A DNA stretch of 64,000 nt. Origin: an uncultured Methylophilaceae bacterium (GTDB lineage Bacteria; Pseudomonadota; Gammaproteobacteria; Burkholderiales; Methylophilaceae). Position numbers and translations under genes: made by a program. Under the pieces are notes generated by a model. That model was not told the origin of the DNA and searched no databases. It worked only from the letters and a program-made list of their open reading frames with translations. This document shows, piece after piece, positions 54,794 to 64,000 of this stretch. Location: the NCBI GenBank assembly GCA_903834185.1, contig CAILHX010000031.1:1-64000 (forward strand). The letters are read 5' to 3'. How positions within the stretch are numbered: position 1 is the stretch's first letter; each line of letters opens with the position of its first letter.

Positions 54794-55092
54794 AATTTCT
54801 ATAATTTAAAAAATCGACGACTTCAGGTATACCAAAAAGCTTGCAAACGCAATAGCGGTTTGGTCAAACATCCTTCGCTTTGTCCATACGCTAACAAACA
54901 ACCCGGCCTTTGAAGAGCTTGTTTAGCGGCAGGGTAATCGTAAAACCCGCCTGGAAAAATGCAAAATAGGAATAAACATATTATTTAATATTCTTTCACA
55001 TTATATGCAATGGCCTATATATTCCTGTGCCTCTTATTCCGATTCGTGAAAATGTTAAGCCTTGTCTTGTTGATTGTTTTAGCGGGAGAACC
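54794..55092. other. AT-rich divergent gap between sulP and the SfnR-like regulator
   Basis: 299 bp with no gene. The centre (54960-55020) is very AT-rich and could hold sigma-70 or CysB-type sites, but no motif can be assigned. A CGGCC...GAGC string at 54905-54921 has GG-N10-GC spacing but lacks the TGGC and TTGC cores and is not called. CGGGAGA at 55082-55088 is the ribosome site of the regulator. Confidence 0.5.
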
Positions 55093-56208
55093 ATGAGCAG
55101 CTATATTGAAGAAATTGAAACCGAAGATCATCTTCAGGCAGGTACTGGTCGAGCTGTTCTGACGTTTCCCAATCCCCAGCAGATTAGCTTGTCTATTCGT
55201 GCAAGTGCATTGGTATTTGCAGATCCGGAATCGCAAAAGCTACTGTCCATAATCGAACGCGTAGCCCCAAGTGAAGCAACTGTTTTGATCAAGGGAGAAA
55301 CAGGAACGGGCAAAGAACTTGTTGCTAGACACATTCACTCCTTAAGCAGAAGAAAAAACGGACCTTTTGCGGCAATTAACTGTGGTGCATTTTCTGAGAC
55401 ACTGGTTGAAAGTGAGCTATTCGGTTATGAACGCGGAGCATTTACCGGTGCTGTTGGCGCAAAACCAGGCTGGTTTGAAACCGCCAATGGCGGTACGCTC
55501 TTTCTGGATGAAATCGGGGACTTGCCGATGTCCACCCAGGTCAAGTTGCTGCGTGTTTTGCAGGAAAGAGAAATTATCCGTGTCGGTGCAAGAAAAACCA
55601 CTCCGATTGACGTCAGGTTACTTGCGGCAACCAATGTGGACCTCAAGGAAGCAGTACATGCCGGCAGGTTCCGTGAAGATCTCTTTTATCGAATCAACGT
55701 GGTACCACTACAGCTATCGCCATTGCGGGAGAGGCCGGGGGATATTCTGCCGCTGATACAGCACTTCATTAGAGTCTACGCGAAAAGGCTGCATATCAAG
55801 GAACCCATCATCCTGCCTGAAACTTTGCGCGCCCTGAGCGATTATCCATGGCCAGGGAATATTCGTGAGCTGGAAAACCTGATTCATCGTGCGCTGCTGG
55901 TTTGCGAAGGAGAAGTATTGAGGCCTCATAACCTCAACCTGCCGATTATTCGCGAACATGATTATGAAGTTCCAAAAGCAATATTGCAGGACGAGCCACC
56001 GCTGGAGGATGATTTCAGCAACATCAAGAAAGCTTTCGCGAAGCTTTTTGAAATGGAGCCCGAGGCGCTTTACGACAGCGTTAATAAAGCATTGATTACA
56101 CAAGCTTATCAGCACGCCCGTGAAAATCAGGTACAAACTGCAAAACTTCTTGGAATCAGTCGGAACGTCCTGCGGAACCAGTTGAAACACTTGGGCTTGA
56201 TCGTATAA
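55093..56208 (+). CDS. Sigma-54 enhancer-binding activator, SfnR-like
   Basis: A 371-aa AAA+ activator of sigma-54 RNA polymerase without an N-terminal receiver or sensor domain, as in SfnR/SfnA-type regulators of sulfone use. Walker A GETGTGKE (68-75), sigma-54 contact loop GAFTGA (115-120), Walker B TLFLDEIGD (135-143) and a C-terminal Fis-type HTH (QTAKLLGISRNVLRNQLK). Start ATG 55093 follows CGGGAGA; an open frame begins at 55027. Activity is probably set by its expression, for example under CysB. It lies beside three sigma-54 promoters and their 18-bp sites, so it is the obvious local activator. Confidence 0.88.
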   Translation: MSSYIEEIETEDHLQAGTGRAVLTFPNPQQISLSIRASALVFADPESQKLLSIIERVAPSEATVLIKGETGTGKELVARHIHSLSRRKNGPFAAINCGAFSETLVESELFGYERGAFTGAVGAKPGWFETANGGTLFLDEIGDLPMSTQVKLLRVLQEREIIRVGARKTTPIDVRLLAATNVDLKEAVHAGRFREDLFYRINVVPLQLSPLRERPGDILPLIQHFIRVYAKRLHIKEPIILPETLRALSDYPWPGNIRELENLIHRALLVCEGEVLRPHNLNLPIIREHDYEVPKAILQDEPPLEDDFSNIKKAFAKLFEMEPEALYDSVNKALITQAYQHARENQVQTAKLLGISRNVLRNQLKHLGLIV

Positions 56209-56322: not shown

Positions 56323-56339
56323 TGGCATGGAACATGCTA
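56323..56339 (+). promoter_or_regulatory. Sigma-54 promoter of msuE-like gene
   Basis: TGGCATGGAACATGCTA has GG (56324-56325) and GC (56336-56337) separated by 10 bp, the -24/-12 signature. The gene starts at 56412, leaving a leader of about 60 nt. Confidence 0.82.
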
Positions 56340-56411
56340 ACTTGGGAAGGTGCTAATAAAAGCAGATCGCTTTAGCATTGCCTTTCAATGAATAAGTATT
56401 TAGGAGCTTAT

Positions 56412-56963
56412 ATGCGAAGAATCGTAGGGATTTCCGGCAGTATTGGAAATCCATCGCGCACGCGTGCGCTGGTCGAAAATATCCTGATCAAAACCGCACA
56501 AAAAACCCATAGCAAGTATGACTTGATTGATATTGCAGAAATAGCCGTGGAGGTTGGGTCAGCGATTAGCTTTGACCGAATACCCGCAGTTGTTCAGGAA
56601 GCATACCGTAAGCTTTATGATGCGGATATCATCGTCATTGCGACACCGGTTTACAAAGCATCGTATACGGGATTGCTCAAACATTTCTTTGACCTGATCG
56701 ATCCCAAGCGCCTGACAGGAAAAATTGCAATATTGGCTGCTACCGGGGGAAGTGATCAACATGCACTGATTCTGGAGAGTCATCTACGCCCACTGGCCAG
56801 TTTTTTTGGGCTGATTACAGTGCCTACGGCAATTTATGCTCGAGACAGTGAATTCGTGGATTACCAGCTTAATAGCGACGCCATATCCAATCGAATCAAT
56901 TCCGCTGTGGAACAAGCAGCCGGGCTATTCCCTCTGGAGCAGCCTGCAGCATTGGCTGCTTGA
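56412..56963 (+). CDS. NAD(P)H-dependent FMN reductase, MsuE/SsuE-like
   Basis: Predicted to supply FMNH2 to two-component monooxygenases that desulfurise sulfonates or sulfones. The 183-aa flavodoxin-like protein begins MRRIVGISGSIGNPSRTRAL (FMN phosphate loop GSxxxxSRT) and has ATPVYKASYTGLLKHFFDL and ATGGSDQHAL. ATG at 56412 is favoured by AGGAG 6 bp upstream; an in-frame ATG lies eight codons earlier. It is read from a sigma-54 promoter immediately after the SfnR-like gene. The partner monooxygenase is not in this window. Confidence 0.88.
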   Translation: MRRIVGISGSIGNPSRTRALVENILIKTAQKTHSKYDLIDIAEIAVEVGSAISFDRIPAVVQEAYRKLYDADIIVIATPVYKASYTGLLKHFFDLIDPKRLTGKIAILAATGGSDQHALILESHLRPLASFFGLITVPTAIYARDSEFVDYQLNSDAISNRINSAVEQAAGLFPLEQPAALAA

Positions 56964-57031: not shown

Positions 57032-57787
57032 TTAGCGCAGAAAAAGCCAGCCCGTCAGTATTACTCCAACCAGAACAACGAAGCCGCGCATGTATAGTTC
57101 AGGCAACCTGTGTAACAGCCACCCTCCGACGATCGCTCCAGCGACACCACCCATAGACAGCGCAAAAGCAGCGTGCCAATCAATCTGACTGGAATATGCA
57201 AACAGAACAACGGCAGAAGCGTTCATCGCCATAGCCATTACATTTTTGGTCGCCGTGGCAACACGAACTTCCTGCCCCGCGACTATCAGTGCAGCAAGCA
57301 TCAAAAAACCGATACCGCCCCCAAAATACCCTCCATAGATGGCAATGATGAACTGGATAAATGCTAGCAGCCCACCGGGGATTGCTTTGGCGGCATGTAG
57401 TTGTTTTTTACGGAAGCTGCCCCATGCAAAAATGAACGTGGCAAATAGCACCAGCCAAGGCACCAGACGAGAAAAAAAGGTAACTGGGGTATGCAGTAAC
57501 AGGATGGCTCCGACAATTCCTCCAGCAACACTGAGTACGAATAACTTCAGGATAGTTAATTCACCCACGCCGCGGGCTAACTTACGCCCTGCTAGAGATG
57601 AAACGATCTGATTGGGGAATAGCGCTATAGTCGAGGTCATATTTGCTGCGAGCGGATTCAGGCCAGCCAGCAGCAAAGCAGGAAAAGTAATGAAAGAACC
57701 GCCACCGGCAAGTGTGTTCTGTATACCGGCATACAGGCCAGCCAGAAAAACAAGGAGTTCTGTGGTAGTTTGTAAATGAGACGGCAT
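57032..57787 (-). CDS. TSUP/TauE-SafE family sulfite or organosulfur permease
   Basis: A 251-aa membrane protein with about eight TM helices in two repeats. The family motifs QNTLAGGGSFITFPALLLAGLNPLAANMTST and YGGYFGGGIGFLMLAALI are visible. TSUP members export sulfite or transport sulfonates. It is the last gene of the operon from the ABC ATPase and is 18 bp after ribA. In a locus with a desulfinase a sulfite-export or detoxification role is reasonable inference. Confidence 0.87.
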   Translation of the reverse strand: MPSHLQTTTELLVFLAGLYAGIQNTLAGGGSFITFPALLLAGLNPLAANMTSTIALFPNQIVSSLAGRKLARGVGELTILKLFVLSVAGGIVGAILLLHTPVTFFSRLVPWLVLFATFIFAWGSFRKKQLHAAKAIPGGLLAFIQFIIAIYGGYFGGGIGFLMLAALIVAGQEVRVATATKNVMAMAMNASAVVLFAYSSQIDWHAAFALSMGGVAGAIVGGWLLHRLPELYMRGFVVLVGVILTGWLFLR

Positions 57788-57805: not shown

Positions 57806-58408
57806 TTACTCAGTCAAATTCAATGCATGCCCTAACTTCATTTGCTTGGTAAAAAGATACGAGTAGTTATTGGGGTTTGATCGCGTAATGAGTGGTATGG
57901 TTTCGGAAATAACCACGCCGAATGAACTTAACTGTTTCGACTTATCCGCGTTGTTGCTCAGCAATTTGATGGAACGCGGCTGCAACAGATGCAATATTTC
58001 AGCGGCAGCCTTATATGATCTGGCATCAACAGGCAGTCCTAAAGCCAGGTTTGCTTGCACAGTATCCAAACCTTTATCCTGCAGGTCGTAGGCGCGTATT
58101 TTATTCGCCAGCCCTATACCGCGCCCCTCATGATTGCGCAGATATACAATAAGCCCCTGGCCGGCATCAGAAATATATTGCTGTGCCAGGTTCAGCTGTT
58201 CGCCACAGTCGCATCGAGAGGAGGAGAAAATATCTCCCGTCAAGCATTCGGAGTGGACTCTGGTCAAAACATTATCCGCATGAAAAATATCCCCCATGAC
58301 CAGCGCCACATGTTCAGTAGCGCTTTGAAGGTCGTGGTACACATGGAATTCAAATTCTCCGAATGAAGTCGGTAATTTTGAGGTGGAAAGTTTAACTAAA
58401 CTGGTCAT
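57806..58408 (-). CDS. ribA: GTP cyclohydrolase II
   Basis: First enzyme of riboflavin synthesis, stand-alone RibA of 200 aa. Zinc cysteines in HSECLTGDIFSSSRCDCGEQ, the catalytic and substrate segments RNHEGRGIGL and LQDKGLDTVQAN, and the C-terminal LLSNNADK are all present, so it should be active. Its position inside a sulfur operon, not a rib operon, suggests a dedicated supply of flavin for FMN-dependent desulfurisation. 81 bp separate it from the dioxygenase-like gene upstream. Confidence 0.92.
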   Translation of the reverse strand: MTSLVKLSTSKLPTSFGEFEFHVYHDLQSATEHVALVMGDIFHADNVLTRVHSECLTGDIFSSSRCDCGEQLNLAQQYISDAGQGLIVYLRNHEGRGIGLANKIRAYDLQDKGLDTVQANLALGLPVDARSYKAAAEILHLLQPRSIKLLSNNADKSKQLSSFGVVISETIPLITRSNPNNYSYLFTKQMKLGHALNLTE

Positions 58409-58488: not shown

Positions 58489-58992
58489 CTAGTCTATTGC
58501 AATCCATCGCTTGGCTTGAGCAGCCTGGCTTGGATTGCCTTCAATACGGATTAACTTTGCAGGCCCATCGCGTCGCGGAGAATGAATTTCCCCTTCATTA
58601 TATGTGCGTGCGGAGCCTGAAGCCAGTACAGATGATCCGCGCAACCTGACTTTTCCAGGCTGTTCTTCACTGGCTGGTTCAACGATCTCCCAGCTATCCA
58701 TGATCGTTTCTCCACTGACCTGACCATATATCGCCCACGAATCACCGTGATCGTGGGGGTTAGTGCGACGCGCCTCATGAAATACATGACCCAATATGGC
58801 GAATCCCAAGTCACGGTCTTGGTATAAAACATTACGCTGAGGTTGGTCATTGCCCAGGTGTTGTTTTATCAACTCGCTATCTATGACGGCTTGTTCCAGC
58901 AGTTTGCGGACGGTCTCGCGTCCGGCAGGTCCGGGGTCGGACAGCAATGCCTGTTTCACCTGCTGCGCAAATATCTCTAAGGTAATGGCCAT
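58489..58992 (-). CDS. Thiol-dioxygenase-like cupin
   Basis: A 167-aa predicted metal enzyme of the double-stranded beta-helix superfamily, close to bacterial cysteine dioxygenase-type proteins (COG5553-like). The metal motif is NPHDHGDSWAIYGQVSGET, with His80 and His82 and a following Glu; a third His is probably the one in EIHSP. Start ATG 58992 follows AAGGA; an in-frame GTG is six codons earlier. In context it may oxidise a thiol to a sulfinate, the substrate class of the divergent DszB-like desulfinase. Substrate unknown. Confidence 0.72.
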   Translation of the reverse strand: MAITLEIFAQQVKQALLSDPGPAGRETVRKLLEQAVIDSELIKQHLGNDQPQRNVLYQDRDLGFAILGHVFHEARRTNPHDHGDSWAIYGQVSGETIMDSWEIVEPASEEQPGKVRLRGSSVLASGSARTYNEGEIHSPRRDGPAKLIRIEGNPSQAAQAKRWIAID

Positions 58993-59066
58993 TCGATTAT
59001 TCCTTGTCACATGTCTGAATATAAGTATTTAATTCCGGCATCTTCTGTTGGCAAGAGGTGAAGTCT

Positions 59067-59474
59067 TCACTCCGCTTCGGTCAATACAGCAAGCTTGGTA
59101 ACACCTGCGCGCTCGACAACTGCCATCACTTTTGCAACAACGGCATACTTGACGGATTCGTCGGAACTTAGGTGATATACAACATCCGGATTCTGCGCCA
59201 GACGCTTTTTAAGCTCGGACTCTAGTGATGTAATCGATTGTTCCTGCTTATCGATATAAACCTTGCCCGAAGCATCAATGCTGATGGTCACAGGTTTCGC
59301 TGGTTCGGGCGGCCTCGTTGCGACGGTCTTGGGCAAGTTTACATGCACTGCATTATTCAGCAGCGGGGCTGTCACGATAAAGGCCACCAGCAGCACCAGC
59401 ATCACGTCTACCAAAGGCGTGATGTTGATTTCACTCATCACCTGATCGCCATCATTTGCACTTGAGAATGCCAT
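59067..59474 (-). CDS. exbD: Biopolymer transport protein ExbD
   Basis: A 135-aa ExbD/TolR protein with one N-terminal TM helix (about 20-40) carrying the conserved Asp in INITPLVDVMLVLLVAFIVTAPL, then a periplasmic domain. It works with ExbB to energise TonB by proton flow. It overlaps exbB at 59474 and is followed by the cupin gene after 74 bp. Confidence 0.94.
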   Translation of the reverse strand: MAFSSANDGDQVMSEINITPLVDVMLVLLVAFIVTAPLLNNAVHVNLPKTVATRPPEPAKPVTISIDASGKVYIDKQEQSITSLESELKKRLAQNPDVVYHLSSDESVKYAVVAKVMAVVERAGVTKLAVLTEAE

Positions 59475-60196
59475 TATGCTACGGCTCCTTTCAGGTTGCG
59501 TACCACACCACCAACTGCTGACGGAGATTGTTCTTGCGCCTCCGGCTTACGGAAATGGATTCTTCTGGAAAGCGCGATAAAGTCAGCGGCAAAATCATCG
59601 AGATTATTGCTGCTGATTTTCAATCTGCGTAAAAAGAAGTTATAGGCCAATACCGCAGGTACCGCGACCGCAATGCCGAAAGCTGTCGCAATCAGTGCTT
59701 CGCCGATCGGGCCTGCCACCACTTCCAGGCTAGCCGACCCCAACCTACTGATGTCGGTCAGCGCATGCATGATGCCCCACACAGTACCGAACAAGCCGAC
59801 AAAAGGTGAAGTGCTACCGATACTGGCCAGCACCGAGAGTCCGCTCTCGCGGATTACTCGCTCCTTTTGAATCTGCTGCCGTAACGCACGTTCCAGCACG
59901 TCCTGACGATCTCCAAAATGTTGCAGGTCATGCGGAGTATTCAAGTCTATATCCTTCAATGCATCGAATCCCACTTGCGAGACCCGATAAGTCGGCCCGG
60001 CGTGCCCTTCCAGATTGGATGCTGCCTGAAAGTCATTCGCACTCCAGAAAGCGGCGCGAAATTTGACGTTTTGCTTGCGCATACGCCAGATCTGGAAGGT
60101 TTTGACTAGGATCAGCGTCCATGTCACCAGAGAAAAAGCCTCCAGCGACCACAACACACTCTGCACAACAAGCGATTTAGTAGAAATATCAATCAT
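59474..60196 (-). CDS. exbB: Biopolymer transport protein ExbB
   Basis: A 240-aa MotA/TolQ/ExbB family membrane protein with three TM helices (about 10-33, 125-150, 170-195). It has the conserved SIGSTSPFVGLFGTVWGIMHAL and GPIGEALIATAFGIAVAVPAVLAYN segments. Partner of ExbD and TonB encoded on either side. The C-terminal tail is longer than usual and polar. 30 bp follow the tonB stop. Confidence 0.94.
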   Translation of the reverse strand: MIDISTKSLVVQSVLWSLEAFSLVTWTLILVKTFQIWRMRKQNVKFRAAFWSANDFQAASNLEGHAGPTYRVSQVGFDALKDIDLNTPHDLQHFGDRQDVLERALRQQIQKERVIRESGLSVLASIGSTSPFVGLFGTVWGIMHALTDISRLGSASLEVVAGPIGEALIATAFGIAVAVPAVLAYNFFLRRLKISSNNLDDFAADFIALSRRIHFRKPEAQEQSPSAVGGVVRNLKGAVA

Positions 60197-60226: not shown

Positions 60227-61039
60227 TTACTTGGAAAGTTTAAAAACAATAGGAACAGTGACCCAGCCATCGATAGGCTTGCTACCACGACGAATGGGAT
60301 CAAAAGTCCAATTACGGACAGCAGATTGTGCAGCATCATCCAGAGTCTTTCTGCCGCTGCTTTGCTTGATATCGACCATATCCGTCTTGCCACTGGCGAG
60401 AATATGCACATGCAGCAACACGGTCCCCTCAAAGCCCTGGCGAATGGCAAAGGCAGGATACTCGGCAGGTGGATTATTGCGGTAAGCGGCATTGATATCG
60501 GGCTCCACGATAGGCTCATCCACCTTGGGCGGAGGGGGCGGTTCCGGCGGGGCGGCCTCTACGGGCCCGGTTGTTTTCGCGGCTTCCGTGTTTTCCGCCA
60601 CGGTCACGACATCATGTGCAACATTCTGTTCCGCTGGAGGGGTACGCATCGCGGCGACCGGTGGCGGTACAGGCGCAGGTTTCTGTTCTACATGGTGCTG
60701 AATCTTGGGCGGCGGCGGAGGGGGCGGTGGTGGCTCCTCAATCTTTTTTTCGGGCTTGACGAACTCGATCTCTACATGATGAGGAATAGCCAGCAAAGTA
60801 GCACTCTGATCCTTATGCAGCATCGCATTGACGACCAGGAATTGAAACAGCGCTGCGCCGACACCAAAAGCAAGGTAATGCTGCCATGTCAAATCATGAG
60901 GCAACGTTTCGTCAAACCTGGCTTGAGGCAGCGCAAGATAACCATGTTCTCCAGAGCAATCCGTCGCAATCGTCGTTACTCTGGCCGGCGCATCAATCAA
61001 TGACTGAGTCAATAGTTCGGAGGGGTTCAATGCGCCCAT
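60227..61039 (-). CDS. tonB: Energy transducer TonB
   Basis: A 270-aa TonB: a cytoplasmic N-terminus of about 50 residues (longer than E. coli TonB), one TM helix (about 52-72), a Pro-rich periplasmic span with a run of nine prolines and PPEPPPPPK, and a C-terminal TonB domain (about 180-270, YPAFAIRQGFEGTVLLHVHIL and AVRNWTFDP). Start ATG 61039 has GGAG 5 bp upstream; GTG at 61045 overlaps the ATPase stop. Position inside an organosulfur operon implies a dedicated TonB for a receptor not in the window. Confidence 0.92.
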   Translation of the reverse strand: MGALNPSELLTQSLIDAPARVTTIATDCSGEHGYLALPQARFDETLPHDLTWQHYLAFGVGAALFQFLVVNAMLHKDQSATLLAIPHHVEIEFVKPEKKIEEPPPPPPPPPKIQHHVEQKPAPVPPPVAAMRTPPAEQNVAHDVVTVAENTEAAKTTGPVEAAPPEPPPPPKVDEPIVEPDINAAYRNNPPAEYPAFAIRQGFEGTVLLHVHILASGKTDMVDIKQSSGRKTLDDAAQSAVRNWTFDPIRRGSKPIDGWVTVPIVFKLSK

Positions 61040-61041
61040 GA

Positions 61042-61932
61042 TCACTCCACCTCGATGCTGTAAAAATCACTGAGAACATCGGTCTTGATGCGCTGGAAAT
61101 CGACAGAACTTCGCTCTCTTGGACGTGCCAAGGGAACTGGTACGATTCTTTTTATACGACCGGGATGAGACTCCATCACGACGATGCGATCGCCGAGGAA
61201 TACTGCTTCTTCCACGTCATGTGTTACCAATATCGTGGTCATACCTTCTTTTTCCCAAAGCAGCTCCAGCTCTTGCTGTAACTTCAGCCGCGTTAAGGCA
61301 TCCAGGGCACCAAAGGGTTCGTCCAGTAACAAAAGCTGGGGGCGTAGCACCAGAGCGCGAGCGATCGCTACACGTTGCGACATTCCACCTGAAAGTTGAT
61401 GCGGATAGGCACTTTCAAAGCCTTGCAGTCCGACCACTGCGATTTGAGCTTTCACACGCGCCGCCCGCTCTAACTTATCTACTTTGGTCGCCGAGAACGC
61501 CAACGAAATATTTTCCTCGACCGTCATCCACGGGAATAACCTATGCTCCTGGAACACGATCCCGCGTCCGAGATCAGTTCCGGTGATAGGCACGCCCAGA
61601 TAATCCGCGCTACCGAGATATTCGTTATCCAGCCCGGCCAGGATGCGCAGCAGGGTCGACTTACCGCAACCGCTTGCGCCAACGATGGAAACAAACTCCC
61701 CGGTGTTAACCGACAGATCAATATGCTCCAGCACTTTCAAAATCCGATCTTGCAGAGTAAAGGATTTTTCCAGCCCGACGATTTCCAGCGCTGTCGTGGA
61801 GGTGGTAGCCGCTTGCTTTGCCACTTCGCGCAGCTCGGTTTTCCGTCCGCGTCGAGATTCAAGCTCTAACGGCGGTACAGCCAATACCTGATCGTTTTGC
61901 CGCAGATGAACTGCGGCGGTTTTGATCGTCAT
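61042..61932 (-). CDS. Sulfonate-type ABC transporter ATP-binding protein (SsuB/TauB-like)
   Basis: A 296-aa ATPase of the nitrate/sulfonate/taurine import family. A 45-residue non-conserved N-terminal extension precedes the ABC domain. Walker A GASGCGKST (85-93), Q-loop in VFQEHRLFPWMT, signature LSGGMSQRVAIARAL, Walker B LLLLDEPFGALD and the switch His in THDVEEA. Start ATG 61932 has GGAG upstream; the frame is open to 62208 but the extra sequence spans the promoter. First gene of the minus operon, 45 bp below its sigma-54 promoter. The permease is not in the window. Confidence 0.9.
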   Translation of the reverse strand: MTIKTAAVHLRQNDQVLAVPPLELESRRGRKTELREVAKQAATTSTTALEIVGLEKSFTLQDRILKVLEHIDLSVNTGEFVSIVGASGCGKSTLLRILAGLDNEYLGSADYLGVPITGTDLGRGIVFQEHRLFPWMTVEENISLAFSATKVDKLERAARVKAQIAVVGLQGFESAYPHQLSGGMSQRVAIARALVLRPQLLLLDEPFGALDALTRLKLQQELELLWEKEGMTTILVTHDVEEAVFLGDRIVVMESHPGRIKRIVPVPLARPRERSSVDFQRIKTDVLSDFYSIEVE

Positions 61933-61977: not shown

Positions 61978-61993
61978 AGCAACTGGCGTGCCA
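61978..61993 (-). promoter_or_regulatory. Sigma-54 promoter of the ABC-tonB-exbBD operon
   Basis: On the minus strand TGGCACGCCAGTTGCT (complement of 61978-61993) matches the consensus TGGCAC-N5-TTGC fully, with GG-N10-GC spacing. The ATPase start is 45 bp downstream of the -12 element. Confidence 0.88.
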
Positions 61994-62176: not shown

Positions 62177-62192
62177 TGGCATGGAGTGTGCT
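62177..62192 (+). promoter_or_regulatory. Sigma-54 promoter of the desulfinase operon
   Basis: TGGCATGGAGTGTGCT has GG (62178-62179) and GC (62190-62191) 10 bp apart and shares TGGCATGG with the msuE promoter. The gene starts at 62270. Confidence 0.84.
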
Positions 62193-62269
62193 GTACATGA
62201 CCAGACACCCCGGGCTGATCGGGAATTTAACAATTGACTCTACAAATCAAATCTACAGGAGTTCTACAC

Positions 62270-63319
62270 ATGGCTAACAATCTTGATGTTCTTTGGTATA
62301 CCCGCTGCCCGGTTCCAACCGGCCTTGGCATCGCTTTGCAAAAAGGCTGGCTGGAAGAAAGCTTCTCCTCCAGTTGCACAAAGATCGAATCGTTGCGGGA
62401 ATCCAATGATCAGTCGGTACGGGAATCCCATTTCGACCATACGCTGACTAATTCAGTACGGCACGGCGGCAACATCCCGGCGATCTGGGCACATGCCATT
62501 GGCAGGGATACCCGTGTGCTGGGTCTTTCCTGGGCAGATGAAACTCAACTCATCCTTACGCTGCCGCAAACCGGGATACGCACGGTAAAGGATCTAAAAG
62601 GCAGAAAATTCGGTTTGCCAAAGTGGGTCAATGTACAAATAGATTTCACACGCGCACAGGCAATACGCGGACTGGAGAATGCATTGAAACTGGAAGGCCT
62701 GGCCGTCAGCGATGTCGAGATCGTCGACTACACTATCGGCGCCGGCTACAGCGACACTCCCGCCAAAAGCGAATCGGGCAACTTTGTGTTCAGTGGACGC
62801 TCCAGTGGCCGCAATGACGAACTGGTAGGCCTGCTACGCGGAGAGGTCGACGCCATTTTCCTGAAAGGGGCCAGTGCAGCTGCGTTAGCCAACCAATTCG
62901 GGTTGGTTACTGTGATAGACACAGGTATACACCCGGATCCCTTGATTCGCGCCAATAACGGCACACCACGCACGCTCACCGTTGACCGCAACCTGATCGA
63001 AAATCATTTCGATGCAGCGGTTCGTATCGTTGAACAGGTTTTGCACGCCGAGGAATGGGCGCGTAGCCATCCGGATGAAACGCGCCGCTTTCTGGCGCGT
63101 GAGACCAACAGCAGCGAGTATTGGGTCAGCGTTGCTTATGGCAAGGATGCGCACGAACGTCTGCGTACCGACTTTTCGGAGCAATCCATCGCCGGGCTAC
63201 AGGATTTCGTGAATTTCCTGCACAGATGGTCATTTATTCCCAAAAGCTTCAAGGTGGATGATTGGCTTGATAGACGTCCACTGGCAGAAGTACTCGGCAG
63301 TCAGGCATTAGCTGCTTGA
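62270..63319 (+). CDS. DszB-like sulfinate desulfinase
   Basis: A 349-aa protein with the fold of sulfonate-binding proteins but no signal peptide. It resembles DszB, the 2'-hydroxybiphenyl-2-sulfinate desulfinase of the 4S pathway. It keeps the equivalents of all three DszB active-site residues: Cys13 in RCPVPTGLG (DszB Cys27 in NCPVP), His54 in SHFDH and Arg64 in RHGGNIP, with the same 10-residue His-Arg spacing. Eight more residues lie between Cys and His than in DszB. It should release sulfite from a sulfinate in the cytoplasm. Start ATG 62270 follows AGGAG. The alternative, a cytosolic binding-protein homologue, is less likely given the conserved triad. Confidence 0.8.
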   Translation: MANNLDVLWYTRCPVPTGLGIALQKGWLEESFSSSCTKIESLRESNDQSVRESHFDHTLTNSVRHGGNIPAIWAHAIGRDTRVLGLSWADETQLILTLPQTGIRTVKDLKGRKFGLPKWVNVQIDFTRAQAIRGLENALKLEGLAVSDVEIVDYTIGAGYSDTPAKSESGNFVFSGRSSGRNDELVGLLRGEVDAIFLKGASAAALANQFGLVTVIDTGIHPDPLIRANNGTPRTLTVDRNLIENHFDAAVRIVEQVLHAEEWARSHPDETRRFLARETNSSEYWVSVAYGKDAHERLRTDFSEQSIAGLQDFVNFLHRWSFIPKSFKVDDWLDRRPLAEVLGSQALAA

Positions 63320-63401: not shown

Positions 63402-64000
63402 ATGAAGCAAATCAGCGTATTTAATATTATCAAACTAGTGTTGCTTTCAACCGTGTTGTTCATCAACCTGCAACAGGCTTTTGCCGCCGATGCAGTAAAA
63501 GAGGTACGCATTGCCGCAGTCGCCTATGGCAAGGACGGAAAAACGGGCTTCAATGGTAGCGCAGGTGTCGTCGATACCGAAGGTTGGCTGCGTGCTGAAT
63601 TGCAGAAGCAGAATATCAAGCTCACATGGGTAGCGATTCCGCCGCAGTCTGTGGCAACCACCATCAACGAAGATTTTGCCAATCACAGTATTGATTTCGC
63701 CGATTATGGCGATCTGCCATCGGTCATCCTCAATGCCAACGGTATCGATACACGACTGATCGTTCCGGGCGGGCGTGGCAACAACGTCTATCTGGTCGTG
63801 CCTCCAGGCTCTACTGCAAAATCCATACTCGATTTAAAAGGCAAGCGCATCGCCATCCATCGTGGCAGACCGTGGGAAGTGTCTTTTGGTCGCCTGTTGG
63901 CAGCTAACGGCCTGAAGATCACAGATTTCAAGGTCTCCAACCTGAACCCGGTGGCGGGAGCCGCTGCACTGGTCGCAGGTAACGTAGATGCCTTCGTCAC
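63402..64000 (+). CDS. SsuA-like ABC transporter substrate-binding protein, 3' end outside window
   Basis: The first 199 codons of a periplasmic sulfonate/nitrate/taurine-type binding protein; the frame is open to the window end. A signal peptide (about 1-27, cleavage near QAFAAD) is followed by the type-2 periplasmic-binding fold with TEGWLRAELQKQNIKLTW, IDFADYGDLPSVI, and LDLKGKRIAIHRG. AAAGGA lies before ATG 63402. It is the likely partner of the SsuB-like ATPase encoded divergently. Unlike the neighbouring desulfinase it is secreted and lacks the RCPVP motif. Confidence 0.88.
   Translation, partial: MKQISVFNIIKLVLLSTVLFINLQQAFAADAVKEVRIAAVAYGKDGKTGFNGSAGVVDTEGWLRAELQKQNIKLTWVAIPPQSVATTINEDFANHSIDFADYGDLPSVILNANGIDTRLIVPGGRGNNVYLVVPPGSTAKSILDLKGKRIAIHRGRPWEVSFGRLLAANGLKITDFKVSNLNPVAGAAALVAGNVDAFV

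Follow-up and report, generated by a model that had tools for sequence, protein, structure and literature searches.

Introduction

Cofactor-free desulfination of sulfinates has been known chiefly through DszB, which removes the sulfur from aryl sulfinates and forms the slow step in fuel biodesulfurisation. In this enzyme Cys27 is thought to protonate the ring carbon while SO2 departs, a His60-Ser25 pair assisting and Arg70 and Gly73 being located at the sulfinate; the C27S mutant is inactive and H60Q suffers a loss of about 17-fold (PMC6100217). In apo DszB His60 and Cys27 are separated by 17 Å, and the loops 55-62 and 187-204 turn helical on substrate binding (PMC6100217). DszB and other proteins of sulfate-starved IGTS8 also show sulfur sparing (PMC8557817).

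DszB-like proteins encoded in ssu-type clusters have already been listed for actinobacteria (PMC8557817, PMC3868597). The products of IGTS8_peg4802 (“SsuA/DszB”) and of the Gordonia terrae desulfinase gene bdsA reach higher levels when the sulfur source is thiophenic (PMC8557817, PMC3868597). The IGTS8 proteome table lists a chromosomal SsuA/DszB protein beside ssu-type gene products in DBT culture (PMC8557817), and benzothiophene was turned into o-hydroxystyrene in E. coli expressing an operon that includes a DszB analogue of low homology (PMC3868597). In Pseudomonas, MsuC oxidises methanesulfinate to methanesulfonate, from which MsuD then releases sulfite (PMC13352529).

Results and Discussion

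Identification of a DszB-like gene

The DNA analysed here, called the window throughout, is a stretch of 64,000 nucleotides from an uncultured Methylophilaceae bacterium. Close to its end lies a gene for a protein, P0001, which we consider probably to be a DszB-family desulfinase that is cytosolic, needs no cofactor and is produced when the cell is starved of sulfate. The gene and the codons of interest are:

62257..62261, + strand: Shine-Dalgarno sequence AGGAG (from sequence), 8 nt upstream of the ATG at 62270
62270..63319, + strand: DszB-like cytosolic desulfinase candidate P0001, 349 aa plus stop (ORF, homology, model)
62300..62302, + strand: Thr11 codon, counterpart of DszB Ser25 (alignment)
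62306..62308, + strand: Cys13 codon, counterpart of DszB Cys27 (phmmer, profile, alignment, orthologue count)
62429..62431, + strand: His54 codon, counterpart of DszB His60 (phmmer, profile, alignment)
62459..62470, + strand: Arg64-x-Gly66-Gly67 codons, counterpart of DszB Arg70-x-Gly72-Gly73 (invariant in 197/197)

The ATG at 62270 was favoured over an in-frame TTG at 62234 because of the AGGAG in front of it. A sequence-only reading of this DNA had pointed to Cys13 in RCPVP, His54, and Arg64 in RHGGNIP, and all are present exactly as stated. Its claim of an intact Cys-His-Arg set was borne out as well, the register C13=C27, H54=H60 and R64=R70 agreeing in phmmer, profile hmmsearch and MAFFT; in the alignment, S25 and G73 of DszB further correspond to T11 and G67. 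The spacing, said to be locally the same as in DszB, is so from His to Arg, at 10 residues in either protein, whereas Cys and His are 41 residues apart in P0001 versus 33 in DszB, owing to 8 extra residues. Judged by conservation, the match of the catalytic set is not due to chance: R64, G66 and G67 are invariant in 197/197 relatives, and C13 is found in 83/83 close orthologues. No signal peptide is visible when the N-terminus MANNLDVLWYTRC is read by eye, as had been claimed, and the first predicted strand comprises residues 7-12, directly before C13.

In a PDB-wide sequence search (phmmer) DszB was the top match for P0001 (2.5e-10), and a profile of 59 relatives searched against the PDB gave 4.6e-36 for DszB, with SsuA second (2.9e-5). 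The AlphaFold2 model of P0001 (pLDDT 92.9, pTM 0.91) found the DszB C27S-substrate complex as its best Foldseek match (E 2e-21, TM 0.76); SsuA proteins ranked next, and Thi5 was matched at 7e-12. By sequence, profile and fold, DszB is thus the nearest characterised relative. H54 lies within a helix (residues 48-56), and pLDDT falls below 50 only at 178-180; these two stretches are roughly aligned with the DszB loops 55-62 and 187-204. From the model, a DszB-like loop closure in P0001 is plausible.

With DszB (PDB 2DE2/2DE3), P0001 shares the fold, homology over the full length, the counterparts of C27, H60, R70 and G73 (S25 being Thr), the absence of a signal peptide, and relatives encoded near LLM flavin monooxygenases. 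However, the two proteins are only ~22% identical, and the residues W88, E91, K199, R227, P233 and R234, conserved in the P0001 family, do not occur in either DszB sequence. The DszB of the 4S pathway, moreover, has dszA/dszC partners, of which none was found in the genome of P0001: a genome search detected no separate DszA-like protein, and no DszC-like protein was detected in a search that had no positive control there. P0001 is filed here as a protein of the DszB kind, but not as 4S-pathway DszB.

Distribution, conservation and sulfur content of the family

The family set comprised 197 DszB-like ORFs from 80 loci (Pseudomonas, Janthinobacterium, Sphingomonas, Methylotenera and others). Sulfite release of this kind had been presumed unusual for an apparent chemolithotroph-like betaproteobacterium. 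This view was not supported, as orthologues with 67-79% identity occur across Proteobacteria; with 197 relatives in 80 loci, the family is common, and rarity outside Actinobacteria was rejected. DszB-like genes (E <= 1e-40) were found in 18/150 Methylophilaceae genomes and in 4/369 genomes of an even class sample, a patchy distribution consistent with horizontal spread. Two contigs labelled Pedobacter and Myxococcaceae (L015, L016) carry orthologues with 75-76% identity and are possibly mis-binned. In the literature searched we found neither a characterised proteobacterial member nor activity data for P0001 or any proteobacterial relative.

Among the 197 relatives, His is present in 180, Cys in 152 and the full C-H-R set in 139; the hydroxyl at the Ser25-equivalent position is kept as Thr (186) or Ser (9). 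In some sphingomonad proteins (L046:4352-5392, L034:4273-5301 and relatives) Asp replaces the catalytic His, giving C-D-R; these have a normal Met content (mean 7), in contrast to the sulfur-poor members.

After its start Met, P0001 contains 2 sulfur amino acids, versus 12.6 expected from 24 other genes of the window (P 3e-4). Its only cysteines are Cys13 and Cys36, and in 71 of the 83 close orthologues the counterpart of Cys13 is the sole cysteine. As these proteins are almost free of sulfur amino acids, expression under sulfur starvation is suggested; and since one fixed cysteine is kept in proteins otherwise purged of sulfur, its retention suggests that Cys13 is catalytic and is the best evidence here for such a role.

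Cysteine-less paralogues

Three classes of paralogues among the 197 lack the cysteine: SHR (37, Pseudomonas), RYR/RHR (5, Massilia and relatives) and GHR (3, Duganella). The tree requires three changes at this position and is most simply read as an ancestral Cys with three separate losses. The first class is represented by:

L076:11084-12139, L027:11173-12225 and 35 other Pseudomonas genes: tandem Cys-to-Ser paralogues

All but one of the SHR proteins (36/37) are encoded directly downstream of a C-H-R copy, and 32/37 lack Cys altogether. None of the 18 invariant residues is changed, and an omega of about 0.09 indicates purifying selection. By analogy, they are natural counterparts of the inactive DszB mutant C27S, and such tandem paralogues in Pseudomonas are a new point. 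We propose that they may bind without cleaving, as a partner or a sensor.

Because these paralogues exist, family membership alone is no proof of catalysis, and because selection keeps them, binding alone can be useful. P0001 itself might accordingly be a non-catalytic cytosolic binder of sulfonates or sulfinates, derived from an SsuA-type protein, which buffers, delivers or senses organosulfur for the monooxygenases or the SfnR-type activator. The overall fold of a solute-binding protein, SsuA as the second-best structural match, the persistence of all three Cys-lost classes, and genes often located beside an ABC transporter and an activator would fit such a role. It is nevertheless rather unlikely for P0001, since in its 83 orthologues C13 is kept throughout as almost the only sulfur amino acid, along with T11, H54, R64 and G67, and since, on the simplest reading of the tree, the cysteine is ancestral.

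That P0001 is an ordinary periplasmic SsuA-type sulfonate-binding protein is very improbable. Relatives are indeed annotated as ABC transporter substrate-binding proteins, as the sequence-only reading had warned, and P0001 gives weak NMT1 and SsuA_fam matches; the latter (TIGR01728), however, scores 78.8, below the cut-off of 163.5. SsuA/TIGR01728 proteins share the periplasmic-binding-protein fold with P0001, but have a signal peptide and no Cys, His or RxGG at the aligned positions. SsuA-type proteins of the same loci, used as controls, are likewise without Cys, His and Arg and carry YGD in place of RxGG. In addition, a separate SsuA-like protein with a typical hydrophobic signal sequence at its start is encoded directly downstream of P0001. 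With the signal peptide absent and the motif wrong, this identity was rejected. A pyrimidine synthase like Thi5/NMT1, or some other enzyme of this fold with no role in sulfur chemistry, was dismissed as more improbable still: the Pfam NMT1 match lies just above its cut-off (20.7 vs 20.5) and Thi5 is among the structural matches, but far below DszB (7e-12 vs 2e-21), the CCCFC motif of Thi5/NMT1 is impossible with two cysteines, and the context is one of sulfur metabolism.

The gene island around P0001

The island starts in the window and runs on into the remainder of the contig. An SfnR-type activator and an FMN reductase are followed by a divergent operon (SsuB-TonB-ExbB-ExbD-cupin-RibA-TauE), P0001 as the first DszB-like protein, the SsuA-like protein, two permeases, a TonB receptor, an MFS protein, two SsuD-like LLM monooxygenases, a second DszB-like protein (also C-H-R) and a class II aldolase. 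Within the window the features are:

55027..56208, + strand: SfnR-type sigma-54 activator with AAA+ and Fis HTH (profile searches)
56323..56338, + strand: sigma-54-like site before the FMN reductase (pattern position)
56388..56963, + strand: MsuE/SsuE-like FMN reductase (profile searches)
57032..57787, - strand: TauE/SafE-type exporter (profile search)
57806..58408, - strand: GTP cyclohydrolase II, RibA (profile searches)
58489..59010, - strand: cupin-like protein, HxH...H motif (its relatives immediately follow DszB-like genes in 4 related genomes)
59067..59474, - strand: ExbD-like protein (sequence and position beside TonB; kept with TonB in relatives)
59474..60196, - strand: ExbB-like protein (sequence and position beside TonB; kept with TonB in relatives)
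60227..61045, - strand: TonB (profile search)
61042..61932, - strand: SsuB-like ABC ATPase (profile searches)
61978..61993, - strand: divergent sigma-54-like site TGGCACGCCAGTTGCT (12/12) before the SsuB-TonB-Exb operon (pattern position)
62177..62192, + strand: sigma-54 -24/-12-like site TGGCATGGAGTGTGCT, ending 78 bp before the P0001 ATG
63402..64000, + strand: SsuA-like periplasmic binding protein with signal peptide, extending past the window to L004:2517

Sites resembling the sigma-54 -24/-12 element precede five transcription units, their ends lying about 45-78 bp ahead of the start codons. The chance of this placement is near 1e-11, a rough, post hoc figure as consensus and windows were picked after looking. 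A count with a loose pattern showed no enrichment across the window as a whole (41 found, 54 expected), so that only the positions are telling, again post hoc. Sulfur poverty extends to other products of the island: the TonB-dependent receptor (L004:4424-6847, 807 aa) has no Cys and no Met except the start (P 1e-13 for the 806 aa after it), and one monooxygenase (354 aa) has zero Cys or Met after its start (P 2e-6). The island is probably induced during sulfate shortage, to obtain sulfur from organic compounds.

With the Pseudomonas systems SfnR/SfnFG, MsuEDC and SsuEADCBF the island shares the sigma-54 activator, the FMN reductase, SsuD/MsuD-type monooxygenases and the sulfonate transporter; for the MsuC/MsuD route, no desulfinase is described in the source cited (PMC13352529). 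Compared by description only, IGTS8_peg4802 and G. terrae bdsA likewise encode DszB-like proteins among ssu-type transporter and LLM genes, but they are actinobacterial, unlike P0001.

Neighbourhoods in relatives

LLM monooxygenases and sulfonate ABC transporters are usually encoded near the relatives. Many orthologues directly follow an LLM gene, which is SsuD-like in Pseudomonas and DszA/NtaA-like in sphingomonads, with gaps of mostly 12-60 bp (about 12-25 bp in most Pseudomonas). The sphingomonad LLM products match a mycobacterial DszA at 38-40%, and the arrangement is that of dszA-dszB; for one of these products, DszA structures were hit at 1.5e-80 and YtnJ at 1e-87. In a Methylophilaceae genome (L107:4092-7997), a DszB-like gene is followed directly by two DszA/NtaA-like monooxygenase genes. 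The monooxygenases of P0001’s own genome are of the SsuD/MsuD type and would free sulfite directly from sulfonates, which counts against the desulfinase reading.

The cupin gene

Relatives of the cupin occur in 5 other genomes of the 150-genome family sample, all of which have DszB-like genes (hypergeometric P about 1e-5 with the own genome excluded, the related genomes not being independent). In four of them (L102-L105) the gene lies about 14 bp downstream of the DszB-like gene. The link of this cupin to DszB-like genes is a new point. Its HxH...H motif, invariant across 6 sequences, together with weak PDB matches to mercaptosuccinate dioxygenase (E 0.02-0.08), suggests a putative sulfinate-forming thiol dioxygenase. 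A Pfam search of the cupin was negative and the structure model is poor (pLDDT 49); on these grounds, and with matches this weak, the cupin was rejected as a proven thiol dioxygenase and its function left unassigned. CpcN, its top profile match, was disregarded as a sum of sub-threshold repeats.

Proposed mechanism and substrate

From homology, conserved residues, gene context and sulfur-poor composition, all of which are observed, we infer the catalysis, substrate and regulation of P0001 as a desulfinase. Organosulfur would be taken up by way of the Cys/Met-free TonB receptor and an Ssu-type ABC importer. Oxidation or opening of the compounds would fall to FMNH2-dependent monooxygenases or to the cupin. 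Any sulfinate formed might be bound by Arg64 and Gly67; with the aid of His54 and Thr11, Cys13 would pass a proton to the ipso carbon, and SO2 or sulfite would leave for cysteine synthesis. This DszB mechanism is proposed because all five counterparts (C13, T11, H54, R64, G67) are present.

The pocket of the P0001 family probably differs from that of DszB, with W88, E91, K199, R227, P233 and R234 as its probable lining; HBPS, the substrate of DszB, is therefore unlikely for P0001, which probably takes a more polar sulfinate. DszB-type proton transfer to a ring fits best with a sulfinate of the aryl (or vinyl) type; the lack of a known substrate of that sort in this case also counts against the desulfinase reading.

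A wider picture is offered tentatively, and we regard it as doubtful: a widespread uncharacterised desulfinase subfamily might form a second PLP-free route from sulfinate to sulfite in Proteobacteria, parallel to MsuC/MsuD, accompanied in Pseudomonas by a nearly sulfur-free tandem Cys-to-Ser pseudo-desulfinase that binds without cleaving, and in Methylophilaceae by a cupin that may make the sulfinate. If true, bacterial organosulfur assimilation would gain a further branch that releases sulfite, at present concealed by the annotation “ABC transporter substrate-binding protein”. A large family that is strongly selected, retains the complete catalytic set and is located in defined sulfur-scavenging islands would then also supply natural variants for other substrates, and the Cys-to-Ser paralogues would offer natural counterparts of the inactive C27S mutant for study.

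The host

The sequence-only reading had taken the organism to be chemolithotroph-like. This is doubtful, as the source belongs to the Methylophilaceae, a methanol-using family, although RuBisCO is present. In this methylotroph-family genome, the gene of the RuBisCO large subunit and one of the hexulose-6-phosphate synthase family are no more than 1 kb apart (G000:C2:14180-16645).
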